Assembly (NCBI GenBank): GCA_026388155.1
Contig: JAPLKI010000022.1
Location: 186,001 to 250,000, forward strand
DNA from: Elusimicrobiota bacterium
GTDB taxonomy: Bacteria > Elusimicrobiota > Elusimicrobia > Elusimicrobiales > UBA9959
DNA length: 64,000 bases
Direction of reading: 5' to 3'
Below the pieces are notes generated by a model. That model saw nothing but the letters and a program-made list of their open reading frames with translations. It made no database searches and was not told the origin of the DNA. This document shows positions 4,754 to 63,275 of the stretch, one piece after another. The position numbers and the translations under genes are program-made. How positions within the stretch are numbered: position 1 is the first letter of the stretch; every line of letters begins with the position of its first letter.

Positions 4754-5359
4754 ATGAAAAAAAACAGTAAAAGCGCTTTCATCGCAATGATGGCGCTCTT
4801 AGGCTACGCGAGCTTCGCCACGGCTCAGGTAGTTTCGTTCGACACTCCCGGTGACAACTCCAAAACGATCGGTTCCATGGTAGAAACCATGCAAGCCGAA
4901 AATCGCATCAACATAGGAGGGATCATCGGAGATGTATTACATGGCAACCACGGAGACCACAACGGACCGCAGCCAGGCCCTCAGCCCGGTCCATGGCATC
5001 CGCAGCCAGGCCCTCAGCCCGGTCCATGGCATCCGCAGCCCGGACCCCAGCCCGGCCCATGGCATCCGCAGCCCGGACCCCAGCCCGGCCCATGGCATCC
5101 GCAGCCCGGACCCGGCCCCGACCCATGGCATCCGCACCCCGGACCTCATCCCGGTCCGTTCCCTCCGCCGCCTCCTCCTCCGCCTCCGCCGCCCCCTCCG
5201 CCCCAGCCGTATTGTACTGCCAGTGATACCGGCTTTGAGGAACATTGGGGAGGACATCAAGGCTGGACCAAAGAGGAAGCTTGCGGCAAATGCCTCAGTT
5301 TCCATGGTTCCTGTAATATCACCTGCCAGGGATGGCCACAGTCGTATCCGTGCAGATAA
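4754..5359 (+). CDS. Secreted proline-rich tandem-repeat protein with Cys-rich C-terminus
   Basis: The 201-residue product has a signal peptide (about 1-24, cleavage after FATA) and a short linker. Six copies of an 11-residue unit of the type HPQPGPQPGPW follow (about residues 72-136), then a run of 14 Pro. The C-terminal domain of about 50 residues has six Cys in the pattern C, C, C, C, C, C (YC, AC, KC, SC, TC, PC). The Pro/Gly/Trp/His repeats suggest an extended surface stalk and the Cys-rich end a small disulfide-bonded head. This is inference from composition; no family was recognised. A GGAG site lies at 4740-4743. A perfect hairpin terminator follows. Confidence 0.75.
   Translation: MKKNSKSAFIAMMALLGYASFATAQVVSFDTPGDNSKTIGSMVETMQAENRINIGGIIGDVLHGNHGDHNGPQPGPQPGPWHPQPGPQPGPWHPQPGPQPGPWHPQPGPQPGPWHPQPGPGPDPWHPHPGPHPGPFPPPPPPPPPPPPPPQPYCTASDTGFEEHWGGHQGWTKEEACGKCLSFHGSCNITCQGWPQSYPCR
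4967..5161 (+). repeat. Six tandem 33-bp repeats in the proline-rich gene
   Basis: Units start at 4967, 5000, 5033, 5066, 5099 and 5132. Units 1 and 2 are identical and units 3 and 4 are identical; 5 and 6 are more diverged. This pattern points to recent pairwise duplication and likely copy-number variation between strains. Confidence 0.9.
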
Positions 5360-16539: not shown

Positions 16540-16565
16540 CCGAAAAATTCAGTTTGCTTTTTCGG
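16540..16565 (+). terminator. AT-rich hairpin terminator
   Basis: CCGAAAAA and TTTTTCGG pair across a 10-nt loop directly after the lipoprotein stop codon. Confidence 0.65.
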
Positions 16566-16566
16566 G

Positions 16567-16597
16567 AAGGCTGAGGGCTTAAGGCTGAAGGCTGAAG
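16567..16597. repeat. Heptamer tandem block (AAGGCTG type)
   Basis: Four consecutive 7-mers: AAGGCTG, AGGGCTT, AAGGCTG, AAGGCTG. The same 7-mer family appears at 29738-29822 and 63173-63268. No matching inverted arm is present here. Confidence 0.8.
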
Positions 16598-16643
16598 ATT
16601 CACAAGTGAATTAGGGATATAACATTATTTTTTGTGGGAAGAA

Positions 16644-29737: not shown

Positions 29738-29822
29738 CAGGCTGTTCAGGCTGCAGGCTGAGGGCGGAAGAACCCAAGAGAGTTTTCCAAACTTCAGCCT
29801 TCAGCCCTCAGCTTTAAGCCTT
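29738..29822. repeat. Heptamer inverted-repeat hairpin (CAGGCTG/AAGGCTG type)
   Basis: Left arm: CAGGCTG units at 29738, 29747 and 29754, then AGGGCGG. Right arm 29792-29820, read backwards: GGCTTAA, AGCTGAG, GGCTGAA, GGCTGAA. The loop is about 24 nt. It lies 20 bp upstream of the Aas-like gene. Confidence 0.82.
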
Positions 29823-29842
29823 CCGATGTTTTTAAGGATTAC

Positions 29843-33760: not shown

Positions 33761-33789
33761 CCAGCAGATGGTGCCTCCCGCCTATAATT

Positions 33790-33817
33790 TGCTAATCGCT
33801 ATTTGCTATTCGCTGTA
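33790..33817. repeat. Heptamer tandem block (TGCTATT/CGCTATT type)
   Basis: Four 7-mers: TGCTAAT, CGCTATT, TGCTATT, CGCTGTA. The reverse complement matches the 7-mer family at 35973-36007, so the two blocks flank the genes at 33897 and 34754 as a distant inverted pair. Confidence 0.8.
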
Positions 33818-33896
33818 ACTTCGGTAGACAGGCGGCCTTTTATTTTGGGATAATATCCCTGTAGCGGGCAACTTGCTGTATTAAGGAGAGGTAACA

Positions 33897-34649: not shown

Positions 34650-34738
34650 GAGTGTAGAGAATATAGACGAGAGTGTAGAGTAAGAAGCAAACATTCGTAA
34701 GGAGACCTCTACACTATCCGCTATTTACTCTCTACTAT
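34650..34738. repeat. Heptamer inverted-repeat hairpin (GAGTGTA type)
   Basis: Left arm 34650-34684: GAGTGTA, GAGAATA, TAGACGA, GAGTGTA, GAGTAAG. Right arm 34706-34738 is the approximate reverse complement in the same 7-nt phase (TAGTAGA, GAGTAAA, TAGCGGA, TAGTGTA when read backwards). It fills most of the space between two genes. Confidence 0.85.
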
Positions 34739-34753
34739 GCAAAGGAGTTTATC

Positions 34754-35968
34754 ATGGAAACCAATCAAACACTTAGCACGGAGTCCCAGAACTGTCTTGA
34801 AATGATCGAAACTTATGGGGCCAACAATTATCACCCTCTGCCGATAATAATCGCGCAGGGAAAAGGCGTGTGGGTTAAAGATCTGGAAGGCCGCAGATAT
34901 ATGGACATGTTAAGCGCCTATTCGGCTCTTAACCACGGCCACAGGCATCCGAAAGTGATCAAGTCGCTCACCACGCAGGCTAAAAAGGTCACGCTCACTT
35001 CGCGAGCTTTCAATAACGACCAGATAGGGCCGTTTTTTAAAGAGCTTTGTGAATTTACCGGCTATGAAATGACTCTGCCCATGAACACCGGCGCTGAAGC
35101 CGTTGAGACCGCCCTCAAGGCGGCGCGCAAATGGGGTTACAAAGTAAAGGGCGTGCCGGAAGGCCAGGCCGAGATAATAGTCTGCTCCAATAATTTCCAT
35201 GGCCGCACCGTGACCATAGTGTCTTTTTCCACCGAGCCGCAGTACAAGGATGGTTTTGGGCCGTTCACTCCCGGCTTTAAGGTAGTGCCCTACGGCAACC
35301 TTGAAGAGTTAAAAGCCGCCGTAACGCCTAATACCGTGGCTTTCCTGGTGGAACCGATACAGGGCGAGGCGGGCATAATAGTGCCGCCGGCGGGCTACCT
35401 GAAAGCCGCCTACGATATCTGCAAAGCCAGCAGGGTCCTTTTCGTGGCCGATGAAATACAGACCGGTTTCGGCCGCACCGGAAAAAAATTCTGCTGCGAG
35501 CACGAGGGCGTGAAGCCGGACATGATGATACTCGGCAAGGCGCTCGGCGGGGGGGTAATGCCCATTTCCGCCGTGGTGTCCTCCAAAGAAGTTCTGGGCG
35601 TGTTCAACCCGGGGGACCACGGAAGCACTTTCGGAGGCAATCCGCTGGCCTGCGCGGTGGCCCGGGCCGCCTTAAAAGTTCTAACCGAGGAAAACCTGGT
35701 TGAAAATTCACGCGAGATCGGCGAATATTTCATGGACAAATTACGCTCCATAAAAGGCCCGAACATAAAAGAAGTACGCGGCAAAGGCCTGCTTATAGGC
35801 GTTGAACTTAACGGTCCCGCCAGGCCCTTTTGCGAGCAGCTTATGAACCTTGGCCTGCTTGCCAAAGAAACGCATGACCATGTGATCCGCTTCGCTCCGC
35901 CGCTGATCATCACGAAGAAAGAGATCGACTGGGCTTTCAGGCGGATAAAGAAAGTGCTGCGTAAATAA
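34754..35968 (+). CDS. rocD: Ornithine aminotransferase
   Basis: 404 residues; class III PLP-dependent transaminase. [19 protein letters not shown] (phosphate-binding and substrate region), [38 protein letters not shown] (Asp stacking on PLP) and [15 protein letters not shown] (Schiff-base Lys) are all intact. The N-terminal [17 protein letters not shown] is characteristic of ornithine-oxoacid rather than acetylornithine enzymes. It converts ornithine and 2-oxoglutarate to glutamate semialdehyde and glutamate. AAGGAG lies 6-7 bp before the ATG. Confidence 0.93.
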
Positions 35969-35972
35969 TAAA

Positions 35973-36042
35973 TAGCGAATAGCAAATGGCGACTAACGGA
36001 TAGCGTGCGGGGAACTTATATTCCCCCGGCGCTATCCGTTGG
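35973..36042. repeat. Heptamer block (TAGCGAA type) running into a long terminator-like hairpin
   Basis: Five 7-mers from 35973: TAGCGAA, TAGCAAA, TGGCGAC, TAACGGA, TAGCGTG. The last units extend into a stem (AACGGATAGCG ... GGGGAA, loop CTTATA, then TTCCCC ... CGCTATCCGTT to 36040) followed by a T-containing stretch. It probably terminates rocD. Confidence 0.82.
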
Positions 36043-36080
36043 ACTTTTAGACCCATACCTTTTTAGGGTTCTCTTCTGCT

Positions 36081-36108
36081 TGTGACATGTGACTTGAAAC
36101 CTGTGACC
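36081..36108. repeat. Heptamer tandem block (TGTGACA type) at the start of the EamA gene
   Basis: Four 7-mers: TGTGACA, TGTGACT, TGAAACC, TGTGACC. They end 7 bp before ATG 36116, where a ribosome site would be expected. The inverted partner is at 37004-37031 at the other end of the gene. Confidence 0.82.
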
Positions 36109-36115
36109 TTTCTTT

Positions 36116-37057
36116 ATGGCTGTTCCGTCAAAAAACCGTAACTGGCTCTATTTCCAGGTAACTTTTGCCGCCGCGGTCTGGGGCGCGTCTTACCCCTTTA
36201 CAAAGTATCTCGTTACCGAAATCTCGCCGCTTTCAATAGTAACCGCCCGCACGCTTATAGGCGTGCTGCTGCTTCTTTTCCTGAGCGGTGCGCGCCTTAA
36301 AGCGGCGGATTGCAAGCCGTCCCTGTTGTGGAAAGTGCTGCTAATGTCCCTGCTGGGCGTTTCAATCCAGCAATATGTGCAGGCCTACGCGCTGAAATAC
36401 ACACAGGCCTCCCACGCGGGGTGGCTTATAGCTACCATACCTATCCTGGTGGCCGGATTAATGGCCGCCTTTGGTGAAAAAATAGGTCCCTTCAAAATAG
36501 TTGCCTTCATTTTAGGCTTTGCGGGCGCAGTGCTGGTGGTGTTCTCAAAAACAGGGGCGGCGGCTTTTTCTCTGCCTTCCACGCGCGGCGACCTTATCTT
36601 CATGATAAGTTGCTTCGCCTGGGCCTTTTACGTCCTGCTTAACAGGAAATGGCTTACCTTTTGGCCGCAGGCCAAGGTGACCACGGTTACCATGCTGGTG
36701 GCGCTTTTAACCCTGCTGCCGGCCTGGCTGGTTTCCGGCGGGCCCGCTGAGTTTGTCCGGGTAACGGCGCGCGGCTGGGTAAGCCTTGCGTATCTTGGCG
36801 TGCTTTCTACGGCTTTTGCGTACCTGTTCTGGAATAATTCGGTTGAAGGACTGGGCCCTGTAACATCTTCCTATTTTATATATCTTCAGCCTTTTGCCAC
36901 TTTGCTTTCCGCTTATTTTTTTCTGGGCGAGGCGGCCGCTCCGTCCGCGATCTTCGGCGGTCTGCTTATACTTGCAGGGGTATATTTTGTTAACATTAAC
37001 AGAGTCACGGGTTTCAGGTTTCAGGCCGCAGGTCCGAACGGCTTTAAACCGGACTGA
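36116..37057 (+). CDS. EamA/DMT family exporter
   Basis: 313 residues with ten predicted helices in two five-helix EamA repeats. WGASYPFTKYLVTEISPLSIV marks the first repeat and SCFAWAFYVLLNRKWL the second. LGVLSTAFAYLFWNNSVEGLG and the YLQPFATLLSAYFFLGE block are typical of drug/metabolite exporters. Substrate unknown. The last 15 or so codons (after VNINR) lie in a heptamer block, so the C-terminal tail (VTGFRFQAAGPNG) is repeat-derived and probably dispensable. No canonical ribosome site; the upstream block occupies that position. Confidence 0.88.
   Translation: MAVPSKNRNWLYFQVTFAAAVWGASYPFTKYLVTEISPLSIVTARTLIGVLLLLFLSGARLKAADCKPSLLWKVLLMSLLGVSIQQYVQAYALKYTQASHAGWLIATIPILVAGLMAAFGEKIGPFKIVAFILGFAGAVLVVFSKTGAAAFSLPSTRGDLIFMISCFAWAFYVLLNRKWLTFWPQAKVTTVTMLVALLTLLPAWLVSGGPAEFVRVTARGWVSLAYLGVLSTAFAYLFWNNSVEGLGPVTSSYFIYLQPFATLLSAYFFLGEAAAPSAIFGGLLILAGVYFVNINRVTGFRFQAAGPNGFKPD
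37004..37031. repeat. Heptamer tandem block inside the 3' end of the EamA gene
   Basis: Units GTCACGG, GTTTCAG, GTTTCAG, GCCGCAG. Read backwards this is TGAAACC, TGAAACC, CGTGAC, matching the block at 36081-36108. The two form an inverted pair around the gene, and this one is translated. Confidence 0.75.
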
Positions 37058-37089
37058 TAAATAAAAAACGGAAAAAGGAACCACGCGCC

Positions 37090-37989
37090 ATGCCTGATTA
37101 CGATGCACTTAAAGATAAATTCGGGACCTTCTGTTTTTTTAACGAGCCCGCGGCCAATTTCACCACTTACCGGGCCGGCGGCGCCGCCCATGCGCTGGTC
37201 AAGCCCGCTTCCCCCGACGAAATGTGCTGGCTTTGGCGCTGGTGTCTTGAAAAAAACCTGCCTTTTCGCGTACTGGGCAAAGGTTCTAATGTACTGGTCA
37301 GCGACAAGGGGCTTGACGGAGTTACGGCGCTTACGGAAAGATTTTCACAGCTTACAATCTCGGGCAACGCCGCAACGGCGGGCTCAGGCGTTTTATGGGA
37401 CGACCTGGCGCGCGTTTGCGCGGAAAAAGGCCTTGGCGGTCTGGAAAAAACCTCAGGTATCCCCGGTACGGTCGGCGGCGCTGTGCGCATGAACGCGGGG
37501 GCTTATGGCCAGGAAACATTCGACCGTCTTGTTTCGGTTGAGACTATGGACGCCGAGGGGCGCGTTTTTACGTTAAAGAAAAATCAAATCGCGCATGGTT
37601 ACAGGATCGTGCTCGGGCTGGAAAACCTGATCGTTCTTTCGGTCTCTTTCGCGTTTGAGCCTTTGGGGAGCGAGAAACTTCTGGCGGAACGGGCCCGCAT
37701 ACTGGCTAAAAGGGCCGAAAAACATCCGCTTGACTATCCCTCGGCAGGCAGCGTCTTCAAACGTCCTGTCGGCGATTTCGCCTCCCGCCTTATAGACGAA
37801 TGCGGCCTTAAGGGGCTTAAAATAGGCGGAGCGCAGGTGTCGCAAAAACACGCGGGTTTTATAATGAATTCGGGCGGGGCCACGGCGTCGGATATTTACC
37901 GCTTGATACAAAAAGTGCGGGCCGAGGTTAAGGCCAAAACCGGCATTGAACTTGATCTTGAACAGGTACTGCTCGGGGATTTTGAGTAG
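37090..37989 (+). CDS. murB: UDP-N-acetylenolpyruvoylglucosamine reductase
   Basis: 299 residues, normal for type II MurB. This cytoplasmic FAD enzyme makes UDP-N-acetylmuramate for peptidoglycan. Visible: NFTTYRAGGAAHALVKPAS, LGKGSNVLVSDKGL (FAD-binding), SGIPGTVGGAVRMNAGAYG, YPSAGSVFKRP (catalytic Ser) and VSQKHAGFIMN followed by TASDIYRLI. All main motifs are intact. It starts 32 bp after the EamA gene and stands apart from other mur genes. Confidence 0.96.
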   Translation: MPDYDALKDKFGTFCFFNEPAANFTTYRAGGAAHALVKPASPDEMCWLWRWCLEKNLPFRVLGKGSNVLVSDKGLDGVTALTERFSQLTISGNAATAGSGVLWDDLARVCAEKGLGGLEKTSGIPGTVGGAVRMNAGAYGQETFDRLVSVETMDAEGRVFTLKKNQIAHGYRIVLGLENLIVLSVSFAFEPLGSEKLLAERARILAKRAEKHPLDYPSAGSVFKRPVGDFASRLIDECGLKGLKIGGAQVSQKHAGFIMNSGGATASDIYRLIQKVRAEVKAKTGIELDLEQVLLGDFE

Positions 37990-55731: not shown

Positions 55732-58700
55732 ATGAAGACCTTTTCCAAAACGGTTTTTACAGCGATCACGGCGCGTTCAGCCGCGCGTGGTTTATTCTTT
55801 GCCACCGCAGCCGCTTTTTCGATGCTCCTTCCCTCCGCGCTCATCGCCCAGAGTGCAGTTCCTTCCTCCGCGCCGCTTAACCCTAAGTTCGTGGCTTATA
55901 TGGCCGCCTCGTCCGGCAAGCAGCAGCGGGTGAAAGCAGTTTCAGGTTCCAGTCATACATTGGGTTTACTTCCTGCGCCGTTCGACTTTTCGTACATGAA
56001 AGGCCGGCACCCCGCGCTCAAGGGGGGGGCTCATGTGCCCAAGTTGGGATACGATTCCACCTATGACCTAAGGAGTCTCGGTAAAGTCTCCTCTGTTAAG
56101 GACCAGGGCGGCTGCGGTTCATGCTGGGCTTTTGCAACCATGGCGTCTCTTGAATCCCGCCTGCTTCCGGGTGAATCGCGGGATTTCTCCGAAAATAACC
56201 TTAAAAACACGTCCGGCTTCGATTACGCCCCCTGCGACGGAGGGGAGTATGCAATGGCAACGGCATACCTGGCCAGGTGGAGCGGTCCTTGGAACGAAAC
56301 GGCCGATCCATACGTTATTACGGAAAATAAACAGGCCCCCATATACCCTTCCCCCAACACCCAGAAGCATCTGCAGGAGGCCCTCTTTCTTCCGGACAGG
56401 TCCGGCCCTGCCGATAACGACAATATAAAATACGCATTGACCGCTTACGGAGCGGTGTTTACCTCGATCTATATGAATGAGGATGACCCCAACTACTCCG
56501 ACTACTATGATCCCGCCAACAAGTCCTATTATTACAACGGCGCCGCCGACACCGACCATTCCGTTACCATAGTCGGCTGGGACGATAATTTTGACAAGAA
56601 CAAGTTTAAAACTGTGCCGGCCGGCAACGGCGCCTTTATTGTCAAGAACTCCTGGGGCGCCGGCTGGGGCGACAGCGGCTATTTTTATATATCGTATTAC
56701 GACGCGGGCCTGAAGCAGAATACCGCTTTCTCGGTGGCCGAGTCCACCGGCAACTATAACAGGACTTACCAGTATGACCCGCTGGGCCAGACTTCAGCCA
56801 CAGGCTACGGCACCAATACGGCCTGGTTTTCAAATGTGTTTACCGCGGCTGAAAATAACACCCAGGTGACCGCCGTAGGTTTTTATACCCTGGCTGTGGA
56901 TTCAGCCTATGACATATACGTTTACCGCGGCGTCACAGCCGGCAACCCGCGCTCCGGCACTCTGATCTCCAGCCAGCCAGGAGGGTCGCAGCCCTATGCC
57001 GGCTATCATACTGTTCCTCTTGCCACCACAGTGGCGCTGACCAGCGGCCAAAAATTTTCAGTAGTAATAAAGATGACCACCCCCGGCTATAATTTCCCTA
57101 TCCCTATGGAATTACCCATAACCTCCCCCAGCCCGTCCTATTCCAGCGGCGCGACGGCCCATGCGGGAGAAAGTTATATCAGTGAGTTAGGCAGCGTATG
57201 GACGGATCTTATTACGCCAAATCCCAACGCCAACGTCAATATAAAGGCTTTCACTTCCGACACCACGCCCCCGTCCAACATAACCACCGTCAACGACGGT
57301 TTATCCACCGACATTACTTATGTTAACTCCCTCAGCCAACTGTCGGCCAACTGGACGGCGTCCGTGGACGCCGAAAGCGGGATACGGCGCTACTTGTACG
57401 CCATCGGCAACACGCTCGGAGGGAACGACGTTCTAGATTGGACTGACAACGGCAACAATACTTCCGTGACACAAACAGGGCTTATCCTTACCAACGGGCA
57501 AATATACTACTTCAAGGTAAAAGCGGAGAACTGGGCAGGGATGTCCTCCGCTGTCACTAATTCCAACGGGCAGACTACAGATAACACCGCTCCTTCAACC
57601 CCGGCGTTCATAAACGACGGCACGGGGGCTGACATAGCCTGGACAGGCTTCCCATCGCAGTTGTCCGCGAACTGGGCCGCCAGTTCCGACGCGCAGAGCG
57701 GCATAGCTAAATATTGGTACGCAATAGGCCACTCGCCTGGCGCGGCTGACGTATTGGGTTGGACTGACAACGGCAACAAAACTTATGTCACGAAGACGGG
57801 TCTGCCCTTGGTGGACGGGTATCCATATTATTTTACGGTAAAAGCGGAGAACGGAGAGGGCCTGCAGTCCGACGCGGTGAATTCCGACGGCCAGACGGTG
57901 GATGAGACCGCCCCGTCAAACCCCGGAGCGGTCAATGACGGCATGGGGGCGGATATAACATATGCGAATTCAAACACTCAATTATCGGCCAACTGGATAG
58001 CCGCGACAGACGCGCAGAGCGGGATAGGCAGATATTGGTACGCAATAGGCACCACCGCGGGGGGCACGAATGTAGTTAATTGGACCGACAACGGCATTCA
58101 TACTTCTACTACAGCGGCCGGTCTGACCCTGGCTAACGGGCAGATATACTATTTCACGATCAAGGCGGAAAACGGGGCGGGCCTGCCGTCCGGCGCGGTG
58201 AGTTCCAACGGCCAGAAGGTGGACACCACTTTCCCTTCCGCCCCCGGCGCGGTCATTGACGGCACTGGAGTTGGTGATATAACCTATGTGAATTCAAGCA
58301 CGCAGCTGTCCGCCCACTGGACAGGCGCTGCGGACGCAGAGAGCGGTATAGCCAGATATTGGTACGCGATAGGCACCACCGCGGGGGGCACGGATACCCT
58401 GGATTGGACCGACAATGGCTCCAACATTTCTGTTTCAACGGCGGGGTTGAGTCTGACGAACGGGGTGACCTATTACTTTACCGTTAAAGCCGAGAACGGC
58501 TCGGGACTGCAATCCACTCCGGTAAACTCCAACGGCCAGACCGTGGATATTACGGCGCCTTCCAGCCCCGCGCCCGTAAACGACGGCACGGGGGACGATA
58601 TCTCCGAAACCGGCATCCCGAATCAGTTGTCCGCAAATTGGGCCGCCAGTTCCGACGCGGAGAGCGGCATAGTCAGATATTGGTACGCGATAGGCACCAC

Positions 58701-61700
58701 TGCGGGGGTCACGGATACCTTGGATTGGACCGACAATGGAACCAGCACTTCTGTTACTAAGACCGGCCTGAGCGGCCTGGTCAACGGCGTAATATATTAC
58801 TTCACGGTCAAGGCGGAGAACGGCGCGGGGCTGCAGACTACGCCGGTAAACTCCAACGGCCAGCTAATGAACGTAGATGTCACGCCGCCAACCAATCCGG
58901 CCCAGGTCAGGGACGGCGCCGGAGCCGATATTGACTGGTCCGGCTCTCTGACCCGGCTGTCGGCCAACTGGGATCCCAGTTCCGATCCACAGACTGGTAT
59001 AGCCAAATACTGGTACGCGATAGGCACCACTGCGGGGGGCACGGATGTAGTGGCTTGGACCGACAACGGCACTAATACCTCTACTACAACTACCGGCCTG
59101 AGCCTGAGCAACGGGCAGATATATTATTTCACGGTCAAGGCGGTGAACGGCGCGGGGCTGTGGTCCGGCGTGGTGAATTCCAACGGCCAGACGGTAGATA
59201 TTACCGCCCCGTCGCTTCCCGGCGCGGTCAATGACGGCACGGGGGCGGATATAACCTATGCGAACTCAAACACGCAGCTGTCCGCCAACTGGACAGGCGC
59301 GACAGATGATCAGAGCGGAATAGCCAGATATTGGTACGCGATAGGCACCACCGCGGGGGGAACGGAGGTGACAGACTGGATAGATAACGGTCCCAACATT
59401 TCTGTTACAAGGTCCGGGCTGAACCTGACCAACGGGCATATATATTACTTCACGGTAAAAGCGGAAAATGGGGCGGGGCTGCCTTCCAGCGCGGTGAATT
59501 CCAACGGCCAGAAGGTGGACACGACCGCCCCGTCAAACCCCGGCGCGGTCAATGACGGAGCGGGGGCGGACATAACTTATACGAATTCCATCACGCAGCT
59601 GTCCGCCAACTGGACAGCCGCGACAGACGCGGAGAGCGGAATAGCCATGTACTGGTACGCGATAGGCACCGCTCCGGGAGGCGCGGATGTTTTGTGGTGG
59701 ACGGACAACGGCGCCGGTATGTCCGTCACAGAGAACGGGCTGGACCTGACTACCGGTGTAACCTATTACTTTACTGTTTATGCCGAGAACGGCGCTGGGT
59801 TGCCGGGCTTAGCCGCCAATTCCGACGGCGTAACTGTTGACACTACTCCGCCTTCCAATATCTGGGCCGTAAATGACGGCACGGGAACCGATATAGCCGA
59901 AACCGGTATCCCGACCCAGTTGTCGGCCAACTGGACCGCCGGTATCGACACGCAGAGCGGGATAGCCATGTACAGGTACGCGATAGGTACCACTACGGGG
60001 AGCACCGACGTGACAGGCGGCTGGAGGAATAACGGCACTATTACTTCTACTACAACAACCGGTCTGACCCTGACAGACGGCGTGACCTACTACTTCACGG
60101 TCAAGGCGGTGAACGGCGTCGGGCTGGAGTCCTCCTCCACCACCTCCAACGGCCAGTGGCTGAACACGGATGTCACGCCGCCCTCCAATGTGGCCCAGGT
60201 AAGGGACGGTACAGGAGCCGACACCGCCTGGTCCGGCTTTTCGGATCAACTGTCGGCCAACTGGGACCCAGGTTTCGACGCGGAGAGCGGCATAGCCGAA
60301 TACTGGTACGCTATAGGCACCACTGCGGGAGACACGGATACCCTGGTGTGGACCGATAACGGCAACAGCACCTCCGTTACAAGTACATCCTTGATCCTGA
60401 CTTTCGGGCAGAAATACTACTTCACGGTAAAAGCGAAGAACGGCGCCGGGCTCTGGTCCGGCGTAACGAATTCCGACGGCCAGACGGTGGACACGACCGC
60501 CCCGTCAACCCCCGGCGCGGTCAATGACGGCACGGGGGGGGATATAACTTATACGACTTCCACCACGCAATTGTCGGCCAACTGGACCGCCGCGACAGAC
60601 GCGGAGAGCGATATAGCCAGATATTGGTACGCGATAAGCACCACCGTCGGCGGCACTAATGTGGTGAACTGGACTGACAACGGCACTAACACTTCTACTA
60701 CAACTACGGGGCTGAGCCTGGCGAACGGCGTGACCTATTACTTTACTATTAAGGCTGAGAACGGCGCCGGGTTGCAGTCCGGCGCGGCAAATTCCAACGG
60801 CCAGACGGTGGACACGACCGCCCCGTCAAACCCCGGCGCGGTAAATGACGGTGCGGGAGCGGATATAACTTATGTGAATTCCACCACGCAACTGTCGGCC
60901 AACTGGACAGCCGCGGCAGACGTTCAGAGCGGGATAGCCAGATATTGGTACGCGATAGGCACCACCACTGTGGGGAGCACGGATTTTCTGGGGTGGACTG
61001 ACAACGGCGCCAACACTTCCACTACAACTACGGGGCTGAACCTGGTGAACGGCGCGACCTATTACTTTACCGTTAAAGCCGAGAACGGCGCGGGGCTGCA
61101 GTCCGATGTATCCAACTCAAACGGCCAGACGGTGGATACGACCGCCCCGTCAAACCCCGGAGCGGTCAATGACGGTACGGGGCAAGATATAAATTATGTT
61201 AACTCCCTCAGCCAGCTGTCCGCCAACTGGATAGCCGCTGCCGACGCTCAGAGCGGGATAGCCAGATATTGGTATGCGATAAGCTCCACCACCGCGGGGG
61301 GCACGGATTTTGTGGGGTGGACGGACAACGGCGCCAACATATCTGTTTCAACGGCGGGGCTCAGCCTGACGGACGGAGTGACCTATTACTTTACCGTTAA
61401 AGCCGAGAATGGCGTAGGCCTGCAATCCGGTGTTTCCAACTCGAACGGCCAGGTGGTGACTTTGGATTTCACTCCGCCGACAAACGTGGCCCAGGTCAGG
61501 GACGGCACCGGAGCCGACGCCGCCTGGTCCAACTCGCTTACCCAGTTGTCGGCCAATTGGGACTCGAGCTCCGCTCCGCAGAGCGGCATAGCCGGCTACT
61601 GGTACGCTATCGGCACCACGGTGGGCGGGACTAACGTGGCGGGCTGGACTGATAACGGCAACAACACTTCCGTTACCAGGACCGGGCTGTACCTGACGAA

Positions 61701-63165
61701 CGGCGCTACCTATTATTTCGGGGTTAAGGCGGAAAACCTGGTGGGCGTTTACTCCGATGTTACCTGGTCCAACGGGCAAATATTAGATACAAGTTCCCCC
61801 GCGGATATCACTTATGTTTACGACGGCACGGGCTCCGACATAGATTATATTTCTTCTTTGAACACGCTGTCAGCCCATTGGGGGGCTTCCGCCCATCCCA
61901 GCGGTATTAACCGTTATGAAGTCGCTATCGGCACATTCACGGGAGGCCTGAACGTGAAGGATTGGACCGCCAACGGGGTGGCGCTCAGCACCACTGTCGC
62001 CGGTCTTGCTTTGACCGAGAGCACAACTTATTATTTTTCAGTGAAAGCGTACAGTAACAGCGGCTCTTCTTCCGCCGTGAAAGTATCCGACGGCCAGATG
62101 GTGGATATTACAAGCCCCACGGCTACGGTGATAATTACCTCCGTCCAGCCTGCCACACTCGGCGTTTTCAGCGCGAAGCTGATAATTACCGAAGCCAACG
62201 GCCTGGCCGGCGCGCCCGCGCTTAAAATCGCTCCCGGCTGCGGCGCGGCTTATAACACGAATGTCTCCTATCTGGCCTATTCCACCTGGACGGTTTCCTC
62301 TTTCATAGAAACTTATTTTTCCACCGGCGCCGCCTGCTTTGTGCTTTCCGCCGCCGATCTGGCCGGAAATATCGGCACGGTGATAACATCAGGCGGAAGT
62401 TTCAATATTGACACTGCCATTTCCGGCGCGGCCGGCGGCACGGTGGCGAACAGCGATGGCTGCGGCGTGAGCGTACCGGCCGGGGATGTCAGCGGAAACT
62501 TTTTTGTAACTATCTCAACCGTGGCATCCTCTCTGACCGACCCGGCTGACGCCTTAAGTCCCGGTTCGGTAAAGCTGCACGTAAATGATCTTGTAAGGGA
62601 TTTCTCCGCCAAAAGCGAGCTTGACGCGCAAATACATAATTTCCCCGCGCCCCCTACGATAACTATGGCTTATCCGGATGCCGACGCGGACGGCATGGTA
62701 GACGGCGACAATGTCCGTGAGGACCTGACCTGGATTTATTGGCTGGACGAAGTATCGGGCAGCTGGGTGCCGCTGCCGGGAGTCAGTCACGATTATAGCG
62801 CCAACACCTTATCGGCGGATGTCAACCATTTCTCGGTCTATTCAATAAGGGTAAAGTCAGTTTCCGGGCTTACGTTCTCGAACCTGAGGGTTTATCCGAA
62901 TCCCTGCGACTTCAATAAAACCCCTTACCGCTTAACCATAGCCGGCATTCCGCAGGATGAAACAGCCCCCGCAGTTTACATCTACAACTCGGCAGGCGAG
63001 CTGGTGCGCGTTTTAAAACCCGGCGACGGCATCGATCCGATTAATGAGGCCTTGTGGGACGGAAGGCTTAAAGGGGGGGGGAAGGCCGCGAGCGGGCTTT
63101 ATATTTACCTGGTAAAGACTAAAAAATACGGTAAGGGAAGCGGAAAATTTTTTGTGCGCTGGTAA
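55732..63165 (+). CDS. Giant secreted C1A (papain-like) protease with 15 FN3-like repeats and C-terminal sorting domain
   Basis: 2477 residues. N-terminal signal/anchor about 1-40, prodomain, then the catalytic domain (about 108-340). Oxyanion Gln125 and nucleophile Cys131 are in QGGCGSCWAF, His276 in DHSVTIVGWDD and Asn306 in VKNSWGAGWG: a complete papain triad. A beta-domain follows (about 345-505), then 15 FN3-like repeats (about 510-2126). The last 350 residues are the same tail as in the M6 protease, ending YPNPCDFN, IYNSAGELVRVL, ASGLYIYLV, GKFFVRW. It is predicted to be exported by a type IX-like route with the downstream PorV. Runs of eight or nine G occur at 56022, 60534 and 63073. 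A chagasin-type inhibitor is encoded at 25689. Confidence 0.9.
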   Translation: MKTFSKTVFTAITARSAARGLFFATAAAFSMLLPSALIAQSAVPSSAPLNPKFVAYMAASSGKQQRVKAVSGSSHTLGLLPAPFDFSYMKGRHPALKGGAHVPKLGYDSTYDLRSLGKVSSVKDQGGCGSCWAFATMASLESRLLPGESRDFSENNLKNTSGFDYAPCDGGEYAMATAYLARWSGPWNETADPYVITENKQAPIYPSPNTQKHLQEALFLPDRSGPADNDNIKYALTAYGAVFTSIYMNEDDPNYSDYYDPANKSYYYNGAADTDHSVTIVGWDDNFDKNKFKTVPAGNGAFIVKNSWGAGWGDSGYFYISYYDAGLKQNTAFSVAESTGNYNRTYQYDPLGQTSATGYGTNTAWFSNVFTAAENNTQVTAVGFYTLAVDSAYDIYVYRGVTAGNPRSGTLISSQPGGSQPYAGYHTVPLATTVALTSGQKFSVVIKMTTPGYNFPIPMELPITSPSPSYSSGATAHAGESYISELGSVWTDLITPNPNANVNIKAFTSDTTPPSNITTVNDGLSTDITYVNSLSQLSANWTASVDAESGIRRYLYAIGNTLGGNDVLDWTDNGNNTSVTQTGLILTNGQIYYFKVKAENWAGMSSAVTNSNGQTTDNTAPSTPAFINDGTGADIAWTGFPSQLSANWAASSDAQSGIAKYWYAIGHSPGAADVLGWTDNGNKTYVTKTGLPLVDGYPYYFTVKAENGEGLQSDAVNSDGQTVDETAPSNPGAVNDGMGADITYANSNTQLSANWIAATDAQSGIGRYWYAIGTTAGGTNVVNWTDNGIHTSTTAAGLTLANGQIYYFTIKAENGAGLPSGAVSSNGQKVDTTFPSAPGAVIDGTGVGDITYVNSSTQLSAHWTGAADAESGIARYWYAIGTTAGGTDTLDWTDNGSNISVSTAGLSLTNGVTYYFTVKAENGSGLQSTPVNSNGQTVDITAPSSPAPVNDGTGDDISETGIPNQLSANWAASSDAESGIVRYWYAIGTTAGVTDTLDWTDNGTSTSVTKTGLSGLVNGVIYYFTVKAENGAGLQTTPVNSNGQLMNVDVTPPTNPAQVRDGAGADIDWSGSLTRLSANWDPSSDPQTGIAKYWYAIGTTAGGTDVVAWTDNGTNTSTTTTGLSLSNGQIYYFTVKAVNGAGLWSGVVNSNGQTVDITAPSLPGAVNDGTGADITYANSNTQLSANWTGATDDQSGIARYWYAIGTTAGGTEVTDWIDNGPNISVTRSGLNLTNGHIYYFTVKAENGAGLPSSAVNSNGQKVDTTAPSNPGAVNDGAGADITYTNSITQLSANWTAATDAESGIAMYWYAIGTAPGGADVLWWTDNGAGMSVTENGLDLTTGVTYYFTVYAENGAGLPGLAANSDGVTVDTTPPSNIWAVNDGTGTDIAETGIPTQLSANWTAGIDTQSGIAMYRYAIGTTTGSTDVTGGWRNNGTITSTTTTGLTLTDGVTYYFTVKAVNGVGLESSSTTSNGQWLNTDVTPPSNVAQVRDGTGADTAWSGFSDQLSANWDPGFDAESGIAEYWYAIGTTAGDTDTLVWTDNGNSTSVTSTSLILTFGQKYYFTVKAKNGAGLWSGVTNSDGQTVDTTAPSTPGAVNDGTGGDITYTTSTTQLSANWTAATDAESDIARYWYAISTTVGGTNVVNWTDNGTNTSTTTTGLSLANGVTYYFTIKAENGAGLQSGAANSNGQTVDTTAPSNPGAVNDGAGADITYVNSTTQLSANWTAAADVQSGIARYWYAIGTTTVGSTDFLGWTDNGANTSTTTTGLNLVNGATYYFTVKAENGAGLQSDVSNSNGQTVDTTAPSNPGAVNDGTGQDINYVNSLSQLSANWIAAADAQSGIARYWYAISSTTAGGTDFVGWTDNGANISVSTAGLSLTDGVTYYFTVKAENGVGLQSGVSNSNGQVVTLDFTPPTNVAQVRDGTGADAAWSNSLTQLSANWDSSSAPQSGIAGYWYAIGTTVGGTNVAGWTDNGNNTSVTRTGLYLTNGATYYFGVKAENLVGVYSDVTWSNGQILDTSSPADITYVYDGTGSDIDYISSLNTLSAHWGASAHPSGINRYEVAIGTFTGGLNVKDWTANGVALSTTVAGLALTESTTYYFSVKAYSNSGSSSAVKVSDGQMVDITSPTATVIITSVQPATLGVFSAKLIITEANGLAGAPALKIAPGCGAAYNTNVSYLAYSTWTVSSFIETYFSTGAACFVLSAADLAGNIGTVITSGGSFNIDTAISGAAGGTVANSDGCGVSVPAGDVSGNFFVTISTVASSLTDPADALSPGSVKLHVNDLVRDFSAKSELDAQIHNFPAPPTITMAYPDADADGMVDGDNVREDLTWIYWLDEVSGSWVPLPGVSHDYSANTLSADVNHFSVYSIRVKSVSGLTFSNLRVYPNPCDFNKTPYRLTIAGIPQDETAPAVYIYNSAGELVRVLKPGDGIDPINEALWDGRLKGGGKAASGLYIYLVKTKKYGKGSGKFFVRW
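57262..62109 (+). repeat. Array of 15 FN3-like repeats (about 321 bp each)
   Basis: Each unit encodes about 107 residues of the form NDGTGADITY, QLSANWTAATDAESGIARYWYAIGTTAGG, TDNG, TGLxLxNG, YYFTVKAENGAGL, SNGQTVDTTAPSNPGA. Repeats 1-14 are close; repeat 15 is more diverged and resembles the second FN3-like repeat of the M6 protease. The codon-level similarity suggests ongoing homogenisation and probable copy-number variation. Confidence 0.9.
62109..63163 (+). repeat. Duplicated protease tail, copy 2
   Basis: Paralogue of 53374-54418. It contains a run of nine G at 63073-63081, where copy 1 has GGGGGAGG, inside the sorting domain. Confidence 0.9.
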
Positions 63166-63172
63166 GAAGGGA

Positions 63173-63268
63173 AAGGCTGAAGGCTTAAGACTGAAGGCTG
63201 AAGGATTAGGAATGAAACCGGAAAAATAATTTTTGTTTTTGTTTCATCCTTCAGCCTTCAGCCTTGCG
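63173..63268. repeat. Heptamer inverted-repeat hairpin (AAGGCTG type) inserted between protease and porV copy 2
   Basis: Left arm from 63173: AAGGCTG, AAGGCTT, AAGACTG, AAGGCTG, AAGGATT, AGGAATG. Right arm 63241-63265 is the approximate reverse complement (CATCCTT, CAGCCTT, CAGCCTT). In copy 1 of the module the same space is only 19 bp and lacks the hairpin. Confidence 0.85.
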
Positions 63269-63275
63269 GGCTAAT

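Follow-up and report, generated by a model that had tools for sequence, protein, structure and literature searches.

The two heptamer blocks that flank an EamA-family transporter gene in this Elusimicrobiota genome are probably unconnected with each other, each a solitary member of a population of short-period repeat arrays that extends across the genus and gathers at the 3' ends of genes. An earlier note on this DNA had read the blocks as a single inverted pair with the gene enclosed between them, open to inversion or to a transcript-wide hairpin. In the population, purine-rich arms nearly always precede pyrimidine-rich arms, and solitary arrays mostly keep the same order within the gaps between genes. 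If each gap keeps the purine type on its left and the pyrimidine type on its right, blocks at the two ends of a gene would look inverted without a stem that encloses the gene or an invertible cassette.

The EamA locus and its two blocks

The EamA gene had been named from its letters alone, and a profile match to PF00892 (E = 3.9e-42) confirms it. The features of the locus are listed below. Positions are those of the window, the whole 64,000-nucleotide stretch of DNA that was analyzed, unless they are given for contig C22 of the source genome.

33782–33821, − strand: ATAGCGA-family array of pyrimidine type, upstream of DUF6588 (periodicity)
34651–34736, unstranded: AGAGTGT-type hairpin in the DUF6588–amt gap, arms 34651–34680 and 34707–34736 (from contig coordinates)
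34754–35968, + strand: amt, class-III aminotransferase gene, conserved neighbor upstream of EamA (domain match; family loci)
35958–36006, + strand: purine-rich ATAGCGA-type array, immediately 3' of amt (periodicity; gap-placement analysis)
35995–36040, unstranded: strong hairpin in the amt–EamA gap whose left arm prolongs the ATAGCGA array (inverted repeat, 85%)
36081–36108, + strand: upstream heptamer block of TGTGACC/TGAAACC units, in the right-arm orientation of its family (periodicity; family comparison)
36116–37057, + strand: EamA-family transporter gene, 313 aa (profile match; orthologues)
about 37003–37032, − strand: downstream heptamer block of TGAAACC units, in left-arm orientation (periodicity; translation)
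37090–37989, + strand: murB, conserved neighbor downstream of EamA (domain match; family loci; orthologue comparison)

The gene order DUF6588–amt–EamA–murB is recurrent in the family, and amt, EamA, and murB all lie on the same strand in the 16 loci that hold all three (family loci L003–L022). The order amt–EamA–murB is kept in other genera, whereas two relatives from the same genus, G001 (locus L081) and G002 (locus L080), have an amt–murB junction without EamA. A genome-wide search for EamA returned one match of only 22% identity in G001 and none in G002. Trees of amt (support 95/87) and of murB (93/83) both make the source genome and G001 sisters; the EamA tree does not fix the place of the source-genome gene and shows no clear transfer. 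Two losses of EamA, or a loss followed by a regain, are thus both possible. A σ70 scan of 35940–37140 identified two promoter-like sites, both on the − strand, versus 1.0 in shuffled sequences, and gave no start for EamA.

The upstream block has the sequence TGTGACATGTGACTTGAAACCTGTGACC and is separated from the EamA ATG by 7 nt. Its units are mostly of the TGTGACC type, with TGAAACC present once. The perfect double unit TGAAACCTGAAACC is found inside the downstream block and nowhere else in the genome. The best inverted pairing joins 36081–36107 with 37004–37030 and is 74% complementary over 27 nt; the blocks are inverted across 0.9 kb as had been described, but the description of both as TGAAACC blocks does not suit the upstream one. 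The downstream block codes for EamA residues 296–306 of 313 and is followed by 7 more residues. A further far-apart inverted pair is formed by the ATAGCGA-family arrays at 33782–33821 and 35958–36006, with DUF6588 and amt enclosed.

On its own, each block shows a modest level of periodicity, with 18 of 28 matches at period 7. At that level or above, 450 kb contain 91 regions at period 7, 20–26 at periods 6, 8, and 9, and 1–5 at periods 5, 10, 11, and 13. The upstream block is a member of a dispersed repeat family that has 79 genome matches at three mismatches or fewer, versus 14 for the reversed pattern. A close inverted partner was found for none of the 11 family arrays examined in the source genome, the two EamA blocks included. 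The upstream block, a right-arm type, stands at the right end of the amt–EamA gap (relative place 0.86), and the downstream block, by family a left-arm type, at the left edge of the EamA–murB gap. With a purine content of 0.54 the downstream block is near neutral, so its arm type rests on family likeness. GGG runs are absent from the upstream block and number one in the downstream block, fewer than a quadruplex-type pattern of G-runs calls for.

The downstream block as a derived feature

By comparison with orthologous sequences, the downstream block is derived, because the tail that goes with it and the broken EamA–murB overlap are both foreign to the orthologues. Beyond the last conserved motif, the EamA tail differs from the 21 homologues listed. 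In 17 of the 18 orthologues with an adjacent murB, murB starts 8–17 nt inside the end of EamA (for the eighteenth, the script found no murB start codon), versus 32 nt past the EamA stop in the source genome. The suggestion that the gene was partly overwritten is supported by both observations, and no orthologue was seen that had the same C-terminus and no repeats. In the simplest reading, the block would have arrived late, replacing the tail and uncoupling EamA from murB.

The upstream block does cover the Shine-Dalgarno position, as the earlier note had stated. A Shine-Dalgarno-like site is, however, absent before EamA in all 20 family orthologues (the outgroup locus L023 has one), so the block removed none, and the loss of such a site through the block was rejected.

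A genus-wide population of short-period arrays

Degenerate arrays of 7-nt repeats, and also of 8-nt and 10-nt repeats, form a population specific to this lineage or genus. At a strict cut of 16 matches in 21, contig C22 (450 kb) holds 60 arrays at period 7 versus 0, 5, 14, 7, 1, 0, and 0 at periods 5, 6, 8, 9, 10, 11, and 13, respectively. Strong period-7 arrays number 99 in 507 kb of G002 and 15 in 103 kb of G001; other genera have 6 in 400 kb. Several unit families are recurrent, about ten by reading of the listing, and some of the period-8 arrays form hairpins like the period-7 ones. Three examples from the window are as follows.

16560–16611, + strand: GAAGGCT-type array (periodicity)
29783–29829, − strand: reversed GAAGGCT-type array that forms a hairpin, as its right arm, with 29743–29772
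63162–63274, unstranded: typical short hairpin, a GAAGGCT array and its inverted partner

The arrays favor gene 3' ends. With gene calls on C22 made by a custom script, 64 of 90 arrays are intergenic, and those in same-strand gaps lie a median of 24 nt past the upstream stop. Divergent gene pairs hold 5 of the 64 intergenic arrays, where about 14 would be expected from their share of intergenic bases. A hairpin is present in 92 of 206 gaps, at a score that gave 3 in one letter-shuffled copy per gap.

Other repeats were also encountered. Hairpins of 8-nt units occur at C22 74757–74885 and 177099–177183, and G002 also has 10-nt units, with a close inverted partner for 17 of its 20 period-10 arrays. 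Two giant open frames (C22 285771–296579 and 298824–316511), scanned in pieces, contain kelch and fn3 domains; both carry in-frame heptamer arrays, and most of the translated ones adjoin an fn3-like TTYYFRA motif. The window also contains a tandem array of a 321-nt unit at 57824–61430 (11.2 copies, 71% matches) and a 33-nt tandem array at 4967–5204 (5.7 copies) that is followed by CCGCCT-type repeats.

Pairing and polarity of the arrays

Inverted and direct matches were counted by distance in a census of 129 arrays with a score cut of 12. Inverted matches exceed direct ones below 150 bp only (15 versus 3 of 27 pairs). The counts are 0 versus 2 of 12 pairs at 150–400 bp, 3 versus 2 of 37 at 0.4–1.2 kb, 6 versus 7 of 123 at 1.2–4 kb, and 20 versus 23 of 315 at 4–12 kb, beyond which they are much alike. 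The EamA pair, 0.9 kb apart and with a score of 11 that is below the cut, is outside the kind that shows the excess.

A close inverted partner was found for 28 of the 60 period-7 arrays on C22. Among 135 arms with such a partner in three genomes of the genus, 115 were typed by purine content, the two arms of a hairpin being counted separately, and 112 of these place the purine-rich arm first across periods 7, 8, and 10. Purine-rich arms are first in 63 cases and second in 3, and pyrimidine-rich arms are second in 49 and first in none. Hairpins below the periodicity cut are purine-first only weakly (32 versus 21, p = 0.17). The same order is apparent from placement within gaps: purine-type arrays are on the left in 22 cases and on the right in 4, pyrimidine-type arrays are on the left in 6 and on the right in 23 (p = 2.4e-6; 17 of the 87 arrays in this set are purine-neutral, and 17 deep in genes were left unplaced). 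Solitary arrays taken alone follow suit, with purine types 10 left and 2 right and pyrimidine types 2 left and 9 right (p = 0.003). Three genes have typed arrays at both ends, in the order purine–gene–purine twice and pyrimidine–gene–purine, the expected order, once.

Within the family of the upstream block, the purine-type arrays in G002 that have a partner have it downstream (3 of 3), and the pyrimidine-type arrays with a partner have theirs upstream (3 of 3). The arm order of the EamA pair is opposite to that of these hairpins, and on this ground a single population-type hairpin element with EamA as the loop was rejected.

T-runs accompany 7 of the 29 periodic hairpins, compared with 17 of 45 hairpins of other kinds and 33 of 206 random gap positions. 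The candidacy of the periodic hairpins as classical intrinsic terminators is weakened, their T-runs being not clearly above random gaps and below other hairpins.

Explanations for the EamA blocks

A gene-long RNA stem between the blocks, covering the EamA start region and controlling translation or mRNA stability, is unlikely, although several predictions point toward it. When 36070–37045 is folded as an isolated 976-nt transcript, 23 expected pairs join the blocks. A block–block duplex is predicted at −33.3 kcal/mol, a strength that 1% of 2000 randomly drawn array pairs reach, and the complementarity of the EamA flanks ranks third among 269 genes tested. The high rank is to be expected, however, since the pair was picked for its pairing in the first place, and predicted equilibrium folding leaves out ribosomes and the 0.9 kb of intervening RNA. 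A pair-probability control gave EamA a value of 35.1, equal to the highest among 40 sampled genes, probably because EamA itself was drawn in the sample. Against the stem are also the census, in which far-apart inverted pairs show no excess over direct ones, the arm order, which is contrary to the hairpin rule, and the strong hairpin at 35995–36040, which stands between amt and the upstream block. The transcript-wide hairpin suggested earlier keeps the predicted pairing in its favor. It is also improbable that the heptamers arose in place by 7-nt polymerase slippage, each block being an accident without relation to the other. Heptanucleotide repeats are reported to be the most abundant class in the majority of genomes with many such repeats, and slippage has been proposed as their source (Mrazek, as told in the available text of PMC4679880). 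A small number of unit families keeps reappearing across the genome and the genus, however, and slippage alone does not yield the pairing of arms and their polarity.

There is very little to recommend the view that the blocks bound a cassette, invertible or mobile, that carries EamA either as a phase switch or as a regained gene. The blocks are near both gene ends, and the same junction without EamA in both same-genus relatives makes loss and regain possible. On the other hand, EamA occupies its old family position, on one strand in all 16 complete loci, and its tree is without clear transfer. The arms, 74% alike over 27 nt, are far from the near-identical inverted repeats of an invertible switch, and inverted pairs are not in excess beyond 150 bp. 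The inversion of the gene raised in the earlier note is not upheld. The blocks are probably better described as two solitary arrays, each in the gap position of its type.

Turnover and spread beyond the genus

Hairpin presence at orthologous gaps was compared between C22 and G002 or G001. Of 21 gaps, 7 have a hairpin in both genomes, 2 in C22 only, 6 in the relative only, and 6 in neither, an association that is not significant. In all 7 gaps with a hairpin in both, the arms are unrelated (likeness scores 2–5); in one of these, C22 carries a GC hairpin that ends in A and T tails where G002 carries a heptamer hairpin, and another has a hairpin of just 10 nt in the relative. The units of the DUF6588–amt gap across the three genomes are AGAGTGT, GCTGAAGC, and GAGTTTAG-type. 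The AAAATGC array of C22 261293 is conserved in G002, so turnover does not extend to every array.

Across the phylum, 8 of 340 genomes (G004, G015, G334, G335, and G337 among them), from 4 of 100 genera, have a match to the ATAGCGA family, and reversed-pattern controls gave none. A close inverted partner accompanies 2 of the 19 ATAGCGA arrays examined, both downstream as the rule predicts; the family is thus mostly solitary.

One exact 23-nt heptamer pattern was found in at least 120 stretches from Nostoc, Acidobacteria, Nitrospirae, Bacteroidetes, Verrucomicrobia, and others, where about 0.06 chance matches would be expected by our own arithmetic at even base composition. Among the matches listed, 80 loci (L122–L201) contain 83 arrays, 76 of them far enough from a sequence end; many of the loci are from Nostoc and are not independent. 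For this one family in other phyla, again among the matches listed, a close inverted partner is downstream of 18 of the 76 arrays and upstream of 1, while direct partners are downstream of 4 and upstream of 2.

Comparison with described repeats

REP and REPIN elements are numerous small intergenic palindromes that are associated with RAYT transposases. The population described here is likewise made of numerous small intergenic palindromes, and the source genome has four Y1_Tnp domains; unlike REP/REPIN, the arms are built of tandem short units. GTAG/CGTC tags are at the feet of 9 of 74 hairpins, as in the random control (0.112), and the four Y1_Tnp loci (about 3.3 kb) contain no strong period-7 or period-8 array. 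A REP/RAYT origin was rejected on these two results.

Little detailed work exists on heptameric repeats according to the available text of PMC4692102, and the closest described system appears, by analogy, to be the Xanthomonas GGGAATC population reported there. Its GGGAATC/GGGANTN arrays are 89–93% intergenic at a mean of 28 nt from the nearer 5' neighbor, with 7–8% between divergent ORFs, are not generally associated with mobile elements, and form 70 and 75 close convergent pairs in two genomes, apparently with the G-rich arm first (PMC4692102). Shared with the arrays described here, as far as that text goes, are dispersal, degenerate heptamer units with constant and variable positions, a mostly intergenic placement near the end of the 5' neighbor, rarity between divergent genes, and close inverted pairs. 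The EamA blocks themselves have no close partner, and one is intergenic while the other is in a gene end. Xanthomonas has one G-rich, quadruplex-capable family whose repeat type is usually preserved between two species; here there are about ten families at periods 7, 8, and 10 with few G-runs, and the unit family is replaced at orthologous junctions.

The TAACTGA repeats of marine Beggiatoaceae are heptamer arrays that often stand just before start codons; some extend over gene ends or stop codons, the residues that they code are mostly at protein ends, and they are patchy over phyla (PMC4679880). The arrays at the start codon and protein end of EamA resemble them in position, but have TGTGACC/TGAAACC units, whereas TAACTGA is a single unit, mostly direct with one indirect case, and no hairpin polarity is described for it in the available text of PMC4679880. 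A search of the open-licence literature returned nothing that was recognized as a polarity rule or as replacement of the unit alphabet. Many families and unit lengths per genome, polarity as a rule, and persistence despite exchange of families appear to be new, not having been seen described in the available text of these sources.

Proposed role and significance

Complete elements may serve as transcript 3'-end structures that are usable from both strands, either in bidirectional termination or in protection of 3' ends. Pyrimidine-rich RNA forms a weak hybrid with DNA. The polarity would suit use from two strands, because the second arm, read from either side, gives pyrimidine-rich RNA. The EamA blocks would be halves or leftovers of such elements and would do little by themselves.

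A broader proposal is put forward tentatively, as somewhat less likely than its alternatives taken together. The arrays may represent a class of 3'-end hairpins present in several phyla, with interchangeable units of 7, 8, or 10 nt that are nearly always purine-first. The unit alphabet would be rewritten at the same junction between congeneric species while the hairpin stays, a copying process spreading the units and bidirectional transcript ending keeping the polarity.

For the EamA gene, a switch hypothesis gives way to a simpler one. For the population as a whole, the near-strict polarity across unit lengths and families, together with the replacement of unit families, provides a testable handle on both role and origin: the role in view would be that of 3' ends that serve both strands, and the origin a process that spreads units while keeping both arms matched.
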